Assembly: GCA_937929885.1 (NCBI GenBank)
Contig: CALFUQ010000262.1
Span: 1 to 40,100 of the forward strand
From: an uncultured Saprospiraceae bacterium
GTDB lineage: Bacteria; Bacteroidota; Bacteroidia; Chitinophagales; Saprospiraceae
Direction: 5' to 3'
DNA length: 40,100 nucleotides
Positions 29,273 to 38,565 of the stretch are shown piece by piece; the stretch's first letter is position 1, and every line of letters starts with the position of its first letter. The position numbers and the translations under genes are program-made. The notes beneath the pieces were generated by a model. It did no database searches. It was not told the DNA's origin and saw only the letters and a list, made by a program, of their open reading frames with translations.

Positions 29273-29582
29273 GATTCAAGGCTGGTCATATTTGTATTCT
29301 ATAATACCATTTATGTTTGAGAATGTTGCTTTAGACTTTACAAAACTCAAATTCATCCAGCGATTATTACTTGCTTCTTTATTTCTGCCTGATTCTGCTA
29401 GCTTTTAAAAGTCATACGAACACAACATCCGTGTTATATAAAAAATGAAACCATGGAAGCAGTAGAAATCTGGACATCATTCAATTTGATTCTTTTCTAC
29501 TACCTCTTAAAAAATTGTTTTGTACTTGGAAACTGTGTTTTTGTCTTGTAAGATTATCGCACCATTTTTGTTTCTTTACAAT

Positions 29583-30026
29583 ATGAAGAAAACCATTGTC
29601 TTATATGGTTTAGCAATAGCGTTAATCTTACTTGTAATTCAAGTGTTTCAGTATCAGTTATTTGTCAAGTATATTTCTTTCGAGGTATTCATTGGGATAT
29701 TAGCGATGATATTCACAGTAATCGGGGTTTGGTTTGGGATAAGGTGGACGAGTCCTAAAAAAACGACAATTGCAAAATCTTCAACCAAAGTTTTAGTTTT
29801 TGGAGACCAATTGGGTTCATATGGATTAAGCAAAAGGGAAACCGAAATACTTGAACAGATCAACTTAGGTAAGACCAATCAAGAGATAGCGGACGAGTTG
29901 TTCATATCTCTTAGTACGGTAAAAAGTCATGTCTCAAATTTGTTTTCGAAGTTGGATGTCAAGAATAGGGTGCAAGCCATCCAAAAAGCAAAAGAACTAA
30001 CAAATACGGCTAGTACTAAAGTATGA
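29583..30026 (+). CDS. Membrane-anchored LuxR-type HTH transcriptional regulator
   Basis: Two N-terminal TM segments; GerE/LuxR HTH LSKRETEILEQINLGKTNQEIADELFISLSTVKSHVSNLFSKLDVKNRVQAI; ATG at 29583 preferred over 29520. Confidence 0.85.
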   Translation: MKKTIVLYGLAIALILLVIQVFQYQLFVKYISFEVFIGILAMIFTVIGVWFGIRWTSPKKTTIAKSSTKVLVFGDQLGSYGLSKRETEILEQINLGKTNQEIADELFISLSTVKSHVSNLFSKLDVKNRVQAIQKAKELTNTASTKV

Positions 30027-30096
30027 ATTGCAATAATTGGCACTTTAGGATGAGCAGATATTGAGATCTTGAGCATTACATTTGAAATAAAAAAAG

Positions 30097-30621
30097 ATGA
30101 AAAAGATTATTCTAATTTTCGGTCTGATATCAGGTGTCATTTGTGGTTCTATGTTTTTTATATTTCATCCGTCAGACGGTCAGATGGATTTCGAAAATGG
30201 AATGCTCAAAGGTTATATCACTATGAGCATAGCACTATCATCAATATTTTTTGCTGTCAAACAATATAGAGACAAATACAATGGTGGAAGTATAAAGTTT
30301 CTCAAGGCACTCTTGATGGGCTTGGCGATCACTTTAGTTGCGGGTATTGTGTATGTTATACTATGGGAAATTTATTATCAGAATTATGCTTCAGATTTTG
30401 CAGATCAGTATCTGGCTTATATCAAAGCACAGTGGGTTTCGCAAGGGATGGCTGCAGATGAAATAGCAAAACAAACAATAGCTATGGAACAAACTTTCGA
30501 ATCCTATACTAAGAACGCTATGGTTAGATTTGCGTTGACTCTTTTAGAGATTTTACCCGTTGGCTTACTTATCTCGATAATCTCTGCTGTCTATTGGGCT
30601 ATAATAAAGAAGAAGGCATGA
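30097..30621 (+). CDS. DUF4199-family membrane protein
   Basis: Four hydrophobic segments; pattern F(G)LISGVICGSMFFI...NGMLKGYITMSIALSSIFFAVKQYRDKYNGGSIKFLKALLMGL. Confidence 0.75.
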   Translation: MKKIILIFGLISGVICGSMFFIFHPSDGQMDFENGMLKGYITMSIALSSIFFAVKQYRDKYNGGSIKFLKALLMGLAITLVAGIVYVILWEIYYQNYASDFADQYLAYIKAQWVSQGMAADEIAKQTIAMEQTFESYTKNAMVRFALTLLEILPVGLLISIISAVYWAIIKKKA

Positions 30622-30740: not shown

Positions 30741-31868
30741 TTACATTTTAGCAATCCACTCCTTAATCAATTCAACCCCTTCATGATGCACTAGCTTTCG
30801 TCCTACCTCTGGCATCATTTCACCTGGGCTAGTCGCTTGCATTCTGTAAAGCATAATGGAGTTTTCTGGCTCTCCCTTCACGATATCATAAGGTCTACCT
30901 CCTGTACCTTTGCCTGCTGCGATGGGATGTTTGTTAATCCCTAGATGAAATTCATCAGTTTCTAGTTCTGTTAGGTGGAGTGCAGAGGTATTTCCTGGGC
31001 CTCCTTCTCGATGGCAGTGTGCACAATTCATATCCAAGTAGGCTAATGCTCTGCCGTGTAGGCTTCCGGTAGATGGATCATTCCAAACTGGTGATTTTCT
31101 AATGCTTGCTATATCAGGTAATCCTTTCAGTAGGCCCAAACCAGAATAGTGTGTGAGTTGATTCTTAGTACCACTTTCAAAAGCAAAATCTCTATTAAGT
31201 TGTCTTGCCTTTGGGCCTATAGGGGTTAGTATATTATTATTTACATGACAACTTTTACAGAGTACTTGAGAAGGAACACTGTAAGCTAGTTCCATTTGCT
31301 TGCCTTCCTTATTTACCCATGATATATCTTTAGTTGCTCCTTCGACAGTAAGGATGGCTTCTGTTTGCTCATCATTCCATACATAAGAGGGTAGTGTTTT
31401 CCAACCATCATCTTCTCTTAGTAGTAATCGAGTTTCCATGATGCGCCTTCCAGCATCCAAGTTCGTTTCATCATTATGATAGTAGAAGTTCTTAATGATG
31501 TAAGTCCCCACAGGAAAAGTTAAAACATCTTCCTCTCGATAAGTAATCGTTTCTCCTTCTGGTAATTTAAAGAACCTCATCTTATGAGAGTAGTCAGAAA
31601 ACAATGGAGTATTTAATTCATAAGGAATTACATCTGCTGAGGGTATCAGATCCTTTAGCGCACCAGCAAAGAACCCATACTCTGATAATTTTTCTAATCC
31701 AATATCTACGGTCTTACCTGCCGATTGTTGCTGCATCATTTTTCTTGCAGCTTCCATATCAGTAGTTACAGCTGTGACATCAACATCTTTTTTAGCTGGT
31801 GCACAACTTGACATACCCTTTAAAAAAGCAAACAAGAGAATTAAATATACGATAGACCTTATATTCAT
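30741..31868 (-). CDS. Diheme c-type cytochrome (SO2930-family type) lipoprotein
   Basis: Two CXXCH motifs (CKSCHVNNN, CAHCHREGG); LSEYGFFAGALKDLIPSADVIPYELNTPLFSDYSHKMRFFKLPEG; paired with a beta-helix gene. Confidence 0.82.
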   Translation of the reverse strand: MNIRSIVYLILLFAFLKGMSSCAPAKKDVDVTAVTTDMEAARKMMQQQSAGKTVDIGLEKLSEYGFFAGALKDLIPSADVIPYELNTPLFSDYSHKMRFFKLPEGETITYREEDVLTFPVGTYIIKNFYYHNDETNLDAGRRIMETRLLLREDDGWKTLPSYVWNDEQTEAILTVEGATKDISWVNKEGKQMELAYSVPSQVLCKSCHVNNNILTPIGPKARQLNRDFAFESGTKNQLTHYSGLGLLKGLPDIASIRKSPVWNDPSTGSLHGRALAYLDMNCAHCHREGGPGNTSALHLTELETDEFHLGINKHPIAAGKGTGGRPYDIVKGEPENSIMLYRMQATSPGEMMPEVGRKLVHHEGVELIKEWIAKM

Positions 31869-31874
31869 GTTGAT

Positions 31875-33212
31875 CTAGTTAGTAGAAAGAGAAAGTCCTT
31901 CTGCTTGTTTACACTGATTAGTAGACTTTGTTAGTTCAATATTTTTTGAGTCGTTGAGAATATCCAAGTTAGCTATCAAAAAATCGCTATCACTATTTAC
32001 GCAGATCGTATTACCGTCTGGGTTCGGTACTCCATCATACCATAGATGAGCATTTTTGCCCATTGTTGCTGCGGTGAATAAAGCACCATCTTTGCTTTGA
32101 AGCTTTTTCCTCAAACTTCCAAAGGACCATTCGTTATTCCTAATAGAAATATCTACGTTGTAAGGATTGTATTCTTTGTCCTTTGCATATGCTTCATTGA
32201 TATGATCTTCTCTTAGGCTTGCCTCTTCATCTGACCCAACTTCCATTCTTGCAAGTTCAGTTTCAGCAATAGGAACAAATTCTTTGTCTTTGGTCATATG
32301 GTAAGATGCTATGAAGCTAAACATAGCTACTGGGAATGGGTTGCCAGTGATCTGATTATCATAAATGTCAATATTCTTTCCAGCCCAAACTGTTATCCCA
32401 GTTCCAGGTACGGTAGATGCAGCAACATTACCAGCTGGAGCAAAATTATATAGTACATTGTTGTAAATCTTATTATCATGAATACGGACATTATCCATAT
32501 AGCGAGTAAGTCCAGGTATGTCCAAAGTCGTTATGCCTGATGTATTATTATAACATTCATTTCCATAGATATCAACATTGGCAGAATTCTCCACATTGAT
32601 ACCGCAAACATTTTCATGAGCGATATTGTTTCTGATCACAATATTTTCTGATTGACCTATATATAATCCAGAGTCAGAGCCTCTCATTGCTTCACAGTTT
32701 TCTATTAATACATTTTTACAGATCACAGGATATATTCCATAAGCTCCTAGTGATTCATTGGGCACATCTGTCCACTCAGTTTTGATGTGTCTGAATGTAA
32801 GTGTATCAATATATATTGCCTTTACATTATCACCAATGGCATCTTGAATCGTAAACCCTTCCAAGGTGATATTATGACCATTGGCAACTCTGATACCTTC
32901 TGCCCCCTCTGTCTGACCTCTGAAAGAGAGTACGGTTTTATCTAATCCTGCTCCTTTGATAGTAATATTGTTTTTACCGTCCAAGATGAGCGCTTTAGTA
33001 AACTTGAAATGCCCTGCAGGTAATTCTATCGTTTCACCATCTTTGGCTAACTGAAATAGTTTCTGAAAATCTGATTCTAGATCAACATATTCTGCTAGAG
33101 ATTTTTGTGGCCTGTCCTCATAAACTTGATAGTCTGCAACAAACCACCAGATCAGTCCAGCAATTAAAAATATAGCCAACGCAAAACCTATATATTTTAG
33201 AATCTTCATCAT
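31875..33212 (-). CDS. Right-handed parallel beta-helix repeat protein (SO2929-type partner)
   Basis: Signal anchor; pectate-lyase-like repeats (GIRVANGHNITLEGFTIQDAIGDNVKAIYI..., NIVIRNNIAHENVCGINVENSANVDIYGNECYNNTSGI). Confidence 0.82.
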   Translation of the reverse strand: MMKILKYIGFALAIFLIAGLIWWFVADYQVYEDRPQKSLAEYVDLESDFQKLFQLAKDGETIELPAGHFKFTKALILDGKNNITIKGAGLDKTVLSFRGQTEGAEGIRVANGHNITLEGFTIQDAIGDNVKAIYIDTLTFRHIKTEWTDVPNESLGAYGIYPVICKNVLIENCEAMRGSDSGLYIGQSENIVIRNNIAHENVCGINVENSANVDIYGNECYNNTSGITTLDIPGLTRYMDNVRIHDNKIYNNVLYNFAPAGNVAASTVPGTGITVWAGKNIDIYDNQITGNPFPVAMFSFIASYHMTKDKEFVPIAETELARMEVGSDEEASLREDHINEAYAKDKEYNPYNVDISIRNNEWSFGSLRKKLQSKDGALFTAATMGKNAHLWYDGVPNPDGNTICVNSDSDFLIANLDILNDSKNIELTKSTNQCKQAEGLSLSTN

Positions 33213-33232
33213 GTCTGATTTTTTTGATTATC

Positions 33233-33290
33233 CTAAAATATGAATAATTGCTCATTATTCAATTATTAAAATGAGTAAAAGCTCATTTTA
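33233..33290. promoter_or_regulatory. Divergent control region: IR1 TGAATAAT-TGCTC-ATTATTCA (33241-33261), IR2 TAAAATGAG-TAAAAG-CTCATTTTA (33267-33290); minus-strand promoter TTG(33262-33260)-N19-TATTTTAG(33240-33233)
   Basis: Two perfect inverted repeats read directly between the beta-helix gene and the tetR gene; IR1 fills the promoter spacer. Confidence 0.6.
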
Positions 33291-33355
33291 CTTAAAAAAA
33301 TCATACTTTGATAGTAAGTTTATTATGTCTACGTGAAAAAATTACATATTATTTT

Positions 33356-33988
33356 ATGGTGAAGGGAAAAAATGTATTGCAGCCAAAGCAGAAAAGAAGC
33401 ATAGCTACTAAACAGAAGATCAAGAAAGTAGCAATGAAATTATTTTCAAAATCAGGATATTATTCAGTGACCTCAAATATGATCGCTGCAGAAGCAAATG
33501 TGCCTATCGGAAGTTTTTATAATTACTTTAAAAACAAGAAAACCTTGATGCTAGAGTTAACCAAGGACTTTAATGCAGGATATCATGATGATACTTTTCA
33601 AAAATATCTTGATATTATAGATTCGACAGAAAGAAGTGAAAATCTATTGAGTGGAGTTGAGAAATCAGTAGAGTTATTTTTATCATCTAAATATTTATCT
33701 AACCCTATTTATAAAATTATTCACTCTTTACAATTTACAGAACCAGATATCCTTGAACTTTCAGAAGAAGTTAGAAAGGTGGAACTTGAATTGATTGACC
33801 AATTTCTTAAGCAGGTGAATACTTTTCATCCGATAAAGAATATTAGGTTAAAAGCCAAACTCATACATAGTTCCGTTGAAAATGTAGGGTTATATATTCA
33901 CCATTTAGGCACTTCATTCAATCAGAAACAATTGATAAAGGAAACTGCAAAGATGTTATATGGATACCTCATATTAGATAATAATTGA
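33356..33988 (+). CDS. TetR/AcrR-family transcriptional regulator
   Basis: KQKIKKVAMKLFSKSGYYSVTSNMIAAEANVPIGSFYNYFKNKKTLMLELTKDF; ATG 33356 preferred over TTG 33308. Confidence 0.9.
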   Translation: MVKGKNVLQPKQKRSIATKQKIKKVAMKLFSKSGYYSVTSNMIAAEANVPIGSFYNYFKNKKTLMLELTKDFNAGYHDDTFQKYLDIIDSTERSENLLSGVEKSVELFLSSKYLSNPIYKIIHSLQFTEPDILELSEEVRKVELELIDQFLKQVNTFHPIKNIRLKAKLIHSSVENVGLYIHHLGTSFNQKQLIKETAKMLYGYLILDNN

Positions 33989-34290: not shown

Positions 34291-34319
34291 AAAAAAGGCT
34301 GCTCAAATGAGCAGCCTTT
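34291..34319 (-). terminator. Rho-independent terminator of the TonB receptor gene
   Basis: Perfect 11-bp stem AAAGGCTGCTC/GAGCAGCCTTT with ATTT loop; U-run on minus strand. Confidence 0.9.
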
Positions 34320-34350: not shown

Positions 34351-37300
34351 TTAATATTTTCCTGTTAATTCTACTCTTCTATTTTGTTGTCTTCCTTCTC
34401 TTGTAGAGTTATCAGCTACTGGTCTGTATTCTCCTTGACCAGAAGATGTCAGTCTAGTTGCGCTAATTCCTTTTGACTCCAAGTACGTTTTAACAGCCAT
34501 TGCTCTATTGATAGATAGATCAAGATTTCTGTTTTCATCACCTACATTATCAGTATGTCCTGTGATTGTAACCTTAAGTCCTGGATCAGCCTGCATGATA
34601 CTCACTACCTCATCAAGTATTGCATAAGAATCACTTCTTAATACTGCTTGACCAGTTTCATACTGGATACCTCTTAATGCTCTAGTAAATACTGATGTTG
34701 TTGCAGCAGAAACTGTTTTCACTTTCGGGCAACCGTTAGAATCAATATCACCACCTCTCTTAGGACACTTATCATCTTTATCCGCAATACCATCATTATC
34801 GCCATCAGGGCAACCATTTACTTTACCAGCAGTATCAGGGCAAGCATCTCTGTCATTAGGTACTCCATCTCCATCACTATCAGATGGACAACCATCAGCA
34901 CCATCACCAGCAGTAGTAGGACACTTATCATCTCCATCAGCTACACCATCGCCGTCACCATCGGGACAACCAGATACCTTACCAGCTGCATTAGGACACT
35001 TATCATCTCTATCTGCTACACCATCACCATCTGCATCTGGGCAACCACTTAGTGTTCCCGCAGCATTAGGACATCTATCATCTTTGTCTGCTACACCGTC
35101 ACCATCACCATCAGGACAACCCATGAGCGTACCGGCTACATTAGGACAATTATCATCATTGTCTATTACACCATCACCATCGCTGTCTGGGCATCCACCA
35201 TTCATTGCATCACCTGCTGCCATTGGGCAATTGTCATCACTATCTTTTATACCATCACCATCGCTATCAGGACAGCCATTAAACGCTTTAAGTCCTGCAA
35301 TGTTAGGACACATATCCTTAGAATCTTTAACACCATCTCCATCTGCATCTGCAGGTCCGTCTGCGCCAAATGTATAAGTCAATTTACCGATTACCCTTCT
35401 ACCTAGTTTAGGCATGTTAGGATAGTATCTGTATTCTGAATCAAATAAGTTCTGAGCTGTAACGTCTAGTGCTAATCCATTGTCAAATCTATATCCAACC
35501 CCCGCATCTACAAGATTACGCTCTTCTGTATCTCCAGAAAATTGACCTAAGAATACCTCATAGGTAGGATCATGCTGGAATGCCGCATTACCTCTCCATC
35601 CAAATTCTGGAGCATAAGTAAATCCTGCTCGTACCTTATTAAGAGGCGCACTATTAGAAGTTCTTTCTGTAGCTCCATCACTTCCTGAAATTACAGGATT
35701 AAAAACATTGTCTGATAGGTATGAATAATTAGTAAATAGAGATAAATCTTGATTTACATAGTACTCAAGCCCTGCATCTATACCAGTATAACTAAAATCT
35801 TCAAATGTTCTATAACCTGCTGATAAGTGAGTTACTCCATTCTGAGGCACCCCATCTGCAGGAACCGTAGCTAGGATATTACCAGCACTTAAAGGTCCTA
35901 TCGCACCTGCAAATCCATCTCCACCTGCAGTATATGCACCTGCAATGGCTGCAAGTAAGGCATCCGCCGTCGGTCCTGCAGCGGGACTAGCTGCACCACC
36001 GAAAAGATTAAACATAAAGTCTCTAAGGCCAGGTGATGCTACTTGTCCAGCTAGCCCAGCTCCTAAGCCTTCTATACCAGCAAGTGAATATCCTGGACTA
36101 ATCGCTGTGAATAATGTCGCACCAGTTGTTTTCTTGTTATAGATATCAATCATCACACCCAACTTATCTGCAATCAAACCTTTATAACCTATTTCCCAAG
36201 TATCTTCTGTTCTAAGCTGAGCTGCAGGTGCATCTTGTATACCTAATGGTTGGCCATTAAATAAATTTGTACCTACGAATGTACCTGTAGTTCCGCCTGG
36301 AGTATTTGCAGGATCGTTAATGTATCCTTGGATCGCTCCAGCTATCTGAGTTGCTTGACCTTGTGCAGTTGCAGCTGCTGTAGCAGGATCAAGGCCAGCA
36401 GCCAATAATTGTTGTTCAATTCCTGGTGCTAAGCTTCCTATCAATCCTGGTACTAATTGAGCTTGGACTGCTCCATTTACCGCACCGAAAGTATAAGCAT
36501 TAGGCATTCCTGGTGTACCTATAGGCAAAGATGGCAGACCCAATAAACCATTAAATACAATCTGCGTATTATTAAACGTCTGTGCTCTTTTATTTCCAGT
36601 CAACCAAATATCTCCACCTGGGAAACCAGCTACTGGGAAATCAATATTAATCTGTAGTTGTGAAGGTGATGCAACTGCTCGGTTAAAACCACCTCTAAAA
36701 GTATGTCTAGGTGATGGCTTGAATACAGCAACTGCTCTTGGCTGAAATGCAGTCTCATCTATAAAACTGAATTGATCAACTCTACCTGCTAAGACGATAT
36801 CTAACTTTGGCCCTAACGCAAATTTACCTTGTAGGTAAGCTCCGACGATTCCAAAATCATCGTCGTCTTCTTCTCGTCCATAAACACTATTACCAGTATC
36901 TGCACTCGAGTTTCTGTAATCTACACCAGCAGTAAAGTTAGAATTCAACAAACTAGGTAAATCAAAATTATATTGAACTTGTGCTTCAGTTTGTGTTCTG
37001 CTAATCCCAGTAGTATTTCCAGTTTGATATAACCAAGTCGGAGCATCATCCGTTCCCCCATTATTAGTTAAAACAAACGCTTGAGCGAAAAGCCCTCCTT
37101 TTTGCATTCTTAACTGTCCATAGAATTCTCTTGCCTGACTTAATCCTTCGCCTTGAGAATTATAAAATACTGAACTTGCTGCGTTTGTTCCACCCGTTGC
37201 TATTATGGATAAGTCATCCTGTGGTCTAAATTCAAGAGTAGCATTAATTAGATTATTAGTCCAAAAGTCTTGCATAACATTACCATCACCATCGGGATCT

Positions 37301-38286
37301 AGGTCTGCCTCGCCGAGTAATTGAGTACCTGCTGCTGATCCATCAACTATTCCTCCCACAATTGCAGGGTTTGAAACGGTCTTACTAAATCTTGCAATCT
37401 GTATTGCGTCAGCTGTATCATTAGGGTCTAATGTGAATTCTCCCCCTTTCTTGTATGAAGCATTAATCTTAAATCCGAACTTATCGGATACTTTTGTTGC
37501 ATGTCTTATAGTTCCACCGAAAGTAGATAATTCTCCACCCATCAGTTCTACCGTAGTTCCTGGATTATCAATAGCTGATTTAGTGATGAAGTGAACAACT
37601 CCTGATGTTACCCCTGGCCCATAAAGTGCAGAACCTGGTCCTCTTACCACCTCTATTCTTTGCATGTCAATGTTACTTAATGGAGAGTTAATAGCATCAA
37701 ATGTTCCTAATCCAGGACCTGATAAAGATCGATAATCAATAATAGGGAATGAAGCTGATCCAAAAAGACCACCATCACCTCTCAATTGAATATTAATCCT
37801 TTCTGCAGATTGCTGCTGGATAGTTACACCTGGCATACTTAATAGTTGCCTAGCAGGGTTTGTCGCTGCTGGTGTTGCTGCCATTTTTCGAGCACTTATC
37901 ACCGATATCGATGCAGGTGCTTCTTGTACTTTCTCCCTTCTTCTAGATGCAGATATTACTACATCATCAGTAAGTAGAAGTCCTTCCATCAGGTTAATGT
38001 TACCTACATTACTAGAGGTCGCCGACATAGTTTTTGTAGCGTATCCTGTATAACTAATCTCCAAATCCACAGGAAGTGATCTAGATGTATTGATCTCAAA
38101 CGTACCGTCAAAATCAGTTATAGTTCCTTCAGAAGTTCCTGCTACCAATACATTGGCACCAATGAGAGCTTCTCCTGTAGCATCATCTGTAATGACACCA
38201 CGAATAGTAGTCTGAGCAGATAGCCCAAAACAAACAATTGTTAATAGTAGTACAAGACTACTTTTAATAGTTTTTCCAATAATCAT
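34351..38286 (-). CDS. TonB-dependent receptor fused to thrombospondin type-3 repeats and a C-terminal OmpA domain
   Basis: Signal peptide from ATG 38286; CarboxypepD_reg (GVITDDATGEALIGANVLVAGTSEGTITDFDGTFEI), plug (RRREKVQEAPASISVIS...RIEVVRGPGSALYGPGVTSGVVHFITK), barrel end (LFDSEYRYYPNMPKLGRRVIGKLTYTF), eight D(x)DGDGV...CP repeats, OmpA motif (VTITGHTDNVGDENRNLDLSINRAMAVKTYLESKGI...NRRVEL). Confidence 0.93.
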   Translation of the reverse strand: MIIGKTIKSSLVLLLTIVCFGLSAQTTIRGVITDDATGEALIGANVLVAGTSEGTITDFDGTFEINTSRSLPVDLEISYTGYATKTMSATSSNVGNINLMEGLLLTDDVVISASRRREKVQEAPASISVISARKMAATPAATNPARQLLSMPGVTIQQQSAERINIQLRGDGGLFGSASFPIIDYRSLSGPGLGTFDAINSPLSNIDMQRIEVVRGPGSALYGPGVTSGVVHFITKSAIDNPGTTVELMGGELSTFGGTIRHATKVSDKFGFKINASYKKGGEFTLDPNDTADAIQIARFSKTVSNPAIVGGIVDGSAAGTQLLGEADLDPDGDGNVMQDFWTNNLINATLEFRPQDDLSIIATGGTNAASSVFYNSQGEGLSQAREFYGQLRMQKGGLFAQAFVLTNNGGTDDAPTWLYQTGNTTGISRTQTEAQVQYNFDLPSLLNSNFTAGVDYRNSSADTGNSVYGREEDDDDFGIVGAYLQGKFALGPKLDIVLAGRVDQFSFIDETAFQPRAVAVFKPSPRHTFRGGFNRAVASPSQLQINIDFPVAGFPGGDIWLTGNKRAQTFNNTQIVFNGLLGLPSLPIGTPGMPNAYTFGAVNGAVQAQLVPGLIGSLAPGIEQQLLAAGLDPATAAATAQGQATQIAGAIQGYINDPANTPGGTTGTFVGTNLFNGQPLGIQDAPAAQLRTEDTWEIGYKGLIADKLGVMIDIYNKKTTGATLFTAISPGYSLAGIEGLGAGLAGQVASPGLRDFMFNLFGGAASPAAGPTADALLAAIAGAYTAGGDGFAGAIGPLSAGNILATVPADGVPQNGVTHLSAGYRTFEDFSYTGIDAGLEYYVNQDLSLFTNYSYLSDNVFNPVISGSDGATERTSNSAPLNKVRAGFTYAPEFGWRGNAAFQHDPTYEVFLGQFSGDTEERNLVDAGVGYRFDNGLALDVTAQNLFDSEYRYYPNMPKLGRRVIGKLTYTFGADGPADADGDGVKDSKDMCPNIAGLKAFNGCPDSDGDGIKDSDDNCPMAAGDAMNGGCPDSDGDGVIDNDDNCPNVAGTLMGCPDGDGDGVADKDDRCPNAAGTLSGCPDADGDGVADRDDKCPNAAGKVSGCPDGDGDGVADGDDKCPTTAGDGADGCPSDSDGDGVPNDRDACPDTAGKVNGCPDGDNDGIADKDDKCPKRGGDIDSNGCPKVKTVSAATTSVFTRALRGIQYETGQAVLRSDSYAILDEVVSIMQADPGLKVTITGHTDNVGDENRNLDLSINRAMAVKTYLESKGISATRLTSSGQGEYRPVADNSTREGRQQNRRVELTGKY
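34730..35355 (-). repeat. Eight tandem TSP3-type coding repeats (about 25-27 codons each)
   Basis: Repeated translation D-x-D-G-D-G-V-x-D-x-x-D-x-CP...GCP within the TonB receptor ORF. Confidence 0.9.
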
Positions 38287-38565
38287 TTTAGTAAATTTTG
38301 ATTGATTCCAAAGGCAAAATATCATTTTATTTGGGCAAACTGTACTTTATCAATAACAAAAACTTAACTCCAAGTAAAAATTAGAATTTATCCATTGTTT
38401 GTGTTTACAATCATATCCTATCTATAAGAAATGAATAGCGGAATAGATAAGCTTTAAATCAAAGTATTCTGCTCATATGCAAAATAGGATTCTGTTTTAA
38501 CCCTATAATTTCTGTTAAACAGAAGATTATTTTAACATAATGATTGTTAATAGCTATACTGATAA

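Follow-up and report, generated by a model that had tools for sequence, protein, structure and literature searches.

Why should a receptor for TonB-dependent transport carry, within the same polypeptide, a domain predicted to bind peptidoglycan? This question is raised by a gene located on the reverse strand (34351..38286) of the window, the stretch of 40,100 nucleotides from an uncultured Saprospiraceae bacterium that was analysed here, in which a TonB-dependent receptor (TBDR), eight TSP3 repeats and an OmpA domain are encoded in 1311 residues. Force exerted across the periplasm drives TonB-dependent transport, and a fused receptor of this kind bears on the question of how receptors in the outer membrane withstand the pull of TonB. 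The reading favoured here, and considered fairly probable, is that of an active TonB-dependent importer with a built-in, non-covalent tether to the peptidoglycan; it is preferred to a mainly structural tether and to a near-neutral fusion.

As the first-pass annotation had proposed, the reading frame is uninterrupted, running from the ATG at 38286 to the TAA at 34351-34353, with a second possible in-frame ATG at 38325. The Pfam domains of the protein all reach or exceed their curated cut-offs and, together with the remaining elements, follow the order signal peptide, CarboxypepD_reg-like extension, TonB box, plug, barrel, TSP3 array and OmpA domain, all on the reverse strand. The signal peptide, assigned from the sequence, comprises approximately residues 1-24 (38215..38286) and is probably cut before Q25, which is invariant in the family alignment. 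It is followed by the CarboxypepD_reg-like N-terminal extension (residues 28-110; 37957..38205; CarbopepD_reg_2, PF13715, 1e-16), by the TonB box DDVVISASRR (residues 107-116; 37939..37968), which precedes the plug and has a counterpart in all 18 full-length fused proteins, by the Plug domain (residues 120-230; 37597..37929; PF07715, 6e-12, 46.4 bits against a cut-off of 23.9) and by the transmembrane barrel (approximately residues 240-973; 35368..37569; PF00593). Residue 973 closes the last barrel strand, RVIGKLTYTF, directly after which the eight TSP3 repeats start (residues 980-1187; 34726..35349; PF02412), leading to the predicted peptidoglycan-binding OmpA domain (residues 1209-1303; 34378..34662; PF00691, 1.7e-22). 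At the level of domains, both the receptor part and the tail that had been described at first, including the number of repeats, are therefore borne out. On the same strand, 32 nt past the stop codon, lies a terminator-like hairpin of 11 pairs followed by a T-run (34294..34319), which suggests that transcription of the fused gene ends there; the argument is one of placement rather than of count, as the hairpin scan found 2 against 2.4 expected in shuffled sequences. Given this position, the gene probably forms a transcript of its own or closes a longer unit.

The source assembly is fragmented (421 contigs, 89.5% complete), as would suit an assembly or sequencing artefact that joined two genes. 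This explanation, whose probability is negligible, is already refuted by independent relatives, since full-length fused members are present in 18 separate assemblies, one of which is 99% complete in about 30 contigs. Of 398 Saprospiraceae genomes drawn evenly, 20 have a tailed member of the barrel family; these genomes belong to seven genera, and the tailed member is complete in 18 and cut by contig ends in 2 (L031/G276 and L032/G343, the contigs of which agree in length, are each treated as one record). The full-length fused relatives in other genomes show 56-70% identity. Many members of the barrel family, at 50-66% identity, extend only 0-8 residues beyond the final strand of the alignment, and more distant relatives in other families of the order likewise end at that strand. 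The tail is thus an addition at the natural C-terminus of the barrel, RVIGKLTYTF is the closing strand that it had been taken for, and, since most members of the barrel family lack a tail, the core function does not depend on one. Tailed and tail-less copies stand in tandem in four genomes (G041, G310, G340 and G391).

A second TBDR subfamily with a TSP3-OmpA tail is represented in two genomes of genus g50 (G049 and G261). Its receptor is 31% identical to the window protein in the N-terminal part and about 60% in the tail, and its own relatives at 46-51% identity are tail-less. No other ORF of more than 1000 aa was recovered in a tail search of 396 Bacteroidota genomes (E <= 1e-38), a search that would miss tails with the Ala/Glu/Lys-rich spacer described below. 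Each of the domains is already known, and it is their combination that is probably new: a TBDR with a C-terminal OmpA domain was not found described in the literature accessible to the search.

With regard to the barrel, the PF00593 match of the window protein covers residues 334-556 and part of the model (53.8 bits against a cut-off of 27). Among the relatives the match reaches the barrel-tail junction, and the model is covered nearly whole in L155 (residues 378-970, profile positions 50-436 of 436) and in L116. The family profile matched TBDTs of the PDB over the N-terminal extension and plug only (SusC homologs and the Colicin I receptor), an AlphaFold2 model of residues 112-1311 with an input of just three sequences had a pLDDT of 29.5, which leaves the 22-strand fold a presumption, and further barrel homologs were sought in viral contigs with none being found. 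Two Ala/Gly/Pro-rich stretches, at residues 601-680 (36247..36486; conservation 0.31-0.45, Ala+Gly+Pro fraction 0.40-0.47) and residues 721-800 (35887..36126; conservation 0.53, Ala+Gly+Pro fraction 0.40-0.62), show the lowest conservation in the family except for the signal peptide, most other parts having values of about 0.6-0.8. They are probably extracellular loops, as the first-pass annotation had supposed, but the peculiarity it saw in them does not belong to the fusion: being the most variable segments of a mostly tail-less barrel family, they are not tied to the tail.

The tail itself combines a replaceable spacer with a constant end domain. In the window protein the spacer contains eight D-x-D-x-D-G repeats and the tail 16 Cys. 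A TSP3 array is present in 14 of the 20 tails, with 8-9 repeats in complete genes and 6 in a gene truncated at the 5' end, while the other six tails have one TSP3 repeat, a long Ala/Glu/Lys-rich stretch and then the OmpA domain. Judged by its composition, this stretch looks helical and akin to TolA-type spacers. Two of these six tails also have His-rich segments; such segments (e.g. HSHNGVTHSHANGGEHVH) are seen in the tailed receptors L159:5506-9336 and L160:824-4636, and a His-rich stretch between barrel and OmpA domain might possibly bind metal. The replacement of the spacer with retention of the end domain fits a tether, and the second spacer would favour a tether whose reach matters. It also bears on the calcium-stiffened linker proposed at first: the TSP3 array, with its predicted calcium binding, is there, but since six relatives use another spacer, neither the array nor calcium is likely to be indispensable.

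The end domain carries the motif G-H-T-D-x14-R-A in 20 of 20 tails. In OmpA from Acinetobacter baumannii (AbOmpA), diaminopimelate is bound by Asp271 and Arg286 (PMC12108004), and D1246 and R1261 of the window protein fit the D-x14-R spacing of this pair, the match being one of spacing. A model of the tail, obtained from an alignment of 27 sequences, has a mean pLDDT of 85.9, with the TSP3 blocks mostly at 81-93, and a pTM of 0.44, so that the relative placement of the modelled repeats is uncertain. In Foldseek the model comes closest to 5wtl, the periplasmic part of Capnocytophaga gingivalis OmpA (E 1e-31); its end domain matches 5wtp, 5u1h and the peptide complex 3td5, the matches including domains of OprF, Pal and AbOmpA. 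In another protein of the source genome (contig C188; L207:1598-5470), of more than 1290 aa and running off the contig, two OmpA-like domains are embedded in an array of dozens of VPATYETVTEQVLVKDAYTTLRP-like repeats.

Barrel and tail do not share a single history. On a quick maximum-likelihood tree of the barrels, seven switches between the tailed and the tail-less state are required, of which well-supported branches enforce six, and tail similarity tracks genus while barrel similarity does not. In genus g63, the tails of G310 and G340 are 90% identical and their barrels 61%, those of G266 and G391 are 91% and 57% identical, respectively, and G310 and G266 have barrels at 94% and tails at only 78%; DNA alignments agree with this mismatch at the protein level. 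The informative sites of a quartet support one grouping by 97:5 up to residue 977 (numbering of the G310 protein, with the junction at 970) and the other grouping by 33:1 from residue 988 on, the chi-square of the breakpoint being 107.6 against a permutation maximum of 16.7 (0 of 2000 permutations). The history of the quartet thus switches at the barrel-tail junction and, as the tails group by genus, one barrel cassette has replaced another while the tail was conserved, an exchange for which the tandem tailed and tail-less copies are obvious partners. Collinearity between G343 and G315 of genus g119 extends beyond 12 kb, with 75-81% DNA identity, and is interrupted by a gap inside the barrel. 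Their fused proteins are 96% identical in the tail and 92% in the first 80 residues, but 40-60% in the variable barrel segments, which in G343 are 79-84% identical to those of a tail-less receptor from another genus (G256, genus g42). The mosaic genomes are largely fragmented assemblies, and the same pattern recurs in separate genomes. Independent gain of each tail was considered and rejected: although the tree needs seven changes, the tails group by genus, which recombination explains better. A tail tree with just seven porin tails places one of them among the fused tails and cannot separate one origin from several.

Such frequent switching, with six or more changes on the barrel tree, together with the restriction of the tailed form to about 5% of the sampled Saprospiraceae genomes, could also be read as the outcome of a chance, near-neutral fusion by recombination of a porin tail to a TBDR, with the tail having little effect. 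A neutral tail, however, would be expected to decay, whereas these tails are intact over seven genera, two spacers are retained and the D-x14-R pair is never lost in the 20 tails, which leaves near-neutrality quite improbable. Unlikely too, although less so, is that the protein is mainly a structural link between outer membrane and peptidoglycan, in which the TBDR barrel serves as a borrowed anchor and transport is secondary or lost. The constancy of the tails by genus while the barrels change, as if the tail held the constant function, agrees with this explanation, as does the OmpA/OprF-porin type of the tail, abundant in Saprospiraceae; against it, the TonB box and plug are retained in all complete copies, the diversity of the barrel is concentrated in loop-like segments, which points to selection acting on contacts with ligand or phage, and the source genome also has an ordinary-sized TSP3-OmpA ORF (C136, 526 aa).

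The conservation of TonB box and plug would argue for an active importer, and in the preferred reading, that of a tethered importer, these elements would couple the receptor to TonB-ExbBD. The chain would exit the last barrel strand into the periplasm, where the TSP3 rod, or the Ala/Glu/Lys-rich spacer in relatives, would span the gap to the wall and the terminal OmpA domain would grip the diaminopimelate of the peptidoglycan. The tether may thereby fix how far the receptor lies from the wall, counteract the force that TonB exerts on the plug and add a link between outer membrane and wall. The barrel is a replaceable module, in that cassettes with different loops have recombined while the anchor tail has stayed with the lineage. 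The anchored transporter first proposed for this gene survives as an interpretation, consistent with the retained plug and TonB box, the match of the tail to C. gingivalis OmpA and the residue pair in 20 of 20 tails. Its companion ideas were that the anchor may help TonB to engage or may fix the position of the receptor; the latter is plausible but does not follow automatically, since removing the peptidoglycan-binding domain of E. coli OmpA does not increase its lateral mobility (PMC3637615). A more specific proposal, rather doubtful as a whole, is that of a receptor-cassette system, in which the N-terminal extension and the TSP3/OmpA tail form an anchored chassis, the plug-barrel is swapped with tail-less paralogs, sometimes in tandem, and the tether has a mechanical function, in that it sets the distance over which TonB can draw the receptor or plug. 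If true, ligand specificity and exposure to phages or bacteriocins could change without rebuilding the anchored importer.

The gene neighbourhoods differ from locus to locus, as is expected if barrels are exchanged, and no conserved neighbourhood naming a substrate was found for the fused genes. A SusD partner, suggested at first as worth seeking, was absent among the neighbours scanned. Acyl-CoA dehydrogenases, ligases, short-chain dehydrogenases and enoyl-CoA hydratases recur near loci of the barrel family, with acyl-CoA genes within 5 kb at 10 of 30 such loci against 0 of 78 porin loci, a comparison biased by probes drawn from barrel loci and by the different taxa of the two sets. That part of the barrel family takes up a hydrophobic substrate feeding acyl-CoA catabolism is a tentative possibility. 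Within the window, a beta-helix protein (TIGR03805) and an SO2930-family diheme cytochrome (TIGR03806) are encoded at 30741-33988, downstream of a divergent TetR gene, and the pair also adjoins two distant tail-less paralogs. As a clue to the substrate it was rejected, because the closest orthologs in a sample of 20 TIGR03806 loci form a unit with the TetR gene and no TBDR of the family is near; conservation of the TetR-beta-helix-cytochrome unit is seen in G003 and G049, and TIGR03806 is present in about half of 101 related genomes. Several ORFs of 1100-2200 aa with a diverged TIGR03806-like region in another genome (G044; contigs C634, C192, C625, C202 and C42) suggest a family of large multidomain diheme proteins. 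At 29520-30621 of the window, a LuxR-type regulator with an N-terminal membrane-like segment lies beside a DUF4199 membrane protein gene, possibly as a two-gene unit.

Tethered receptors with similar tail-less relatives and two spacers provide matched pairs for testing tethering, in terms of its effect on import, receptor mobility and envelope stability, and barrel exchange at the anchor junction means that receptor specificity evolves apart from envelope attachment. Among known systems, the CarboxypepD_reg TBDTs of Bacteroidota (Oar/SusC-like) have the same signal peptide, N-terminal extension, TonB box, plug and barrel, but usually stop at the last barrel strand, where the window protein goes on into its tail. 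A Pfam survey of 34,893 TBDTs sorts them by N-terminal architecture only and, in the available part of that paper, names no C-terminal anchor (PMC6434023). The window protein falls outside SusC/RagA, with 95 bits on TIGR04056 against a cut-off of 368.25 and without a SusD partner. With OmpA/OprF-type porins such as C. gingivalis OmpA (5wtl, 5wtp), the periplasmic part of which is 36% identical to the window tail, it shares the TSP3 array and periplasmic OmpA domain; these porins, however, have a small N-terminal barrel (ORFs of about 500 aa in Saprospiraceae) in place of a plugged TBDR of about 970 aa. TraB, from myxobacterial outer-membrane exchange (NF033763), is alike in its TSP3-like/OmpA C-terminal region, but the match of 182.8 bits is confined to the tail and far under the 700-bit cut-off. 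Finally, recombining TBDRs with variable loops are known from the pyoverdine receptor fpvA and from RagA, in which segments are swapped between lineages; here, the swap crosses tailed and tail-less receptors and its breakpoint lies at the anchor junction.
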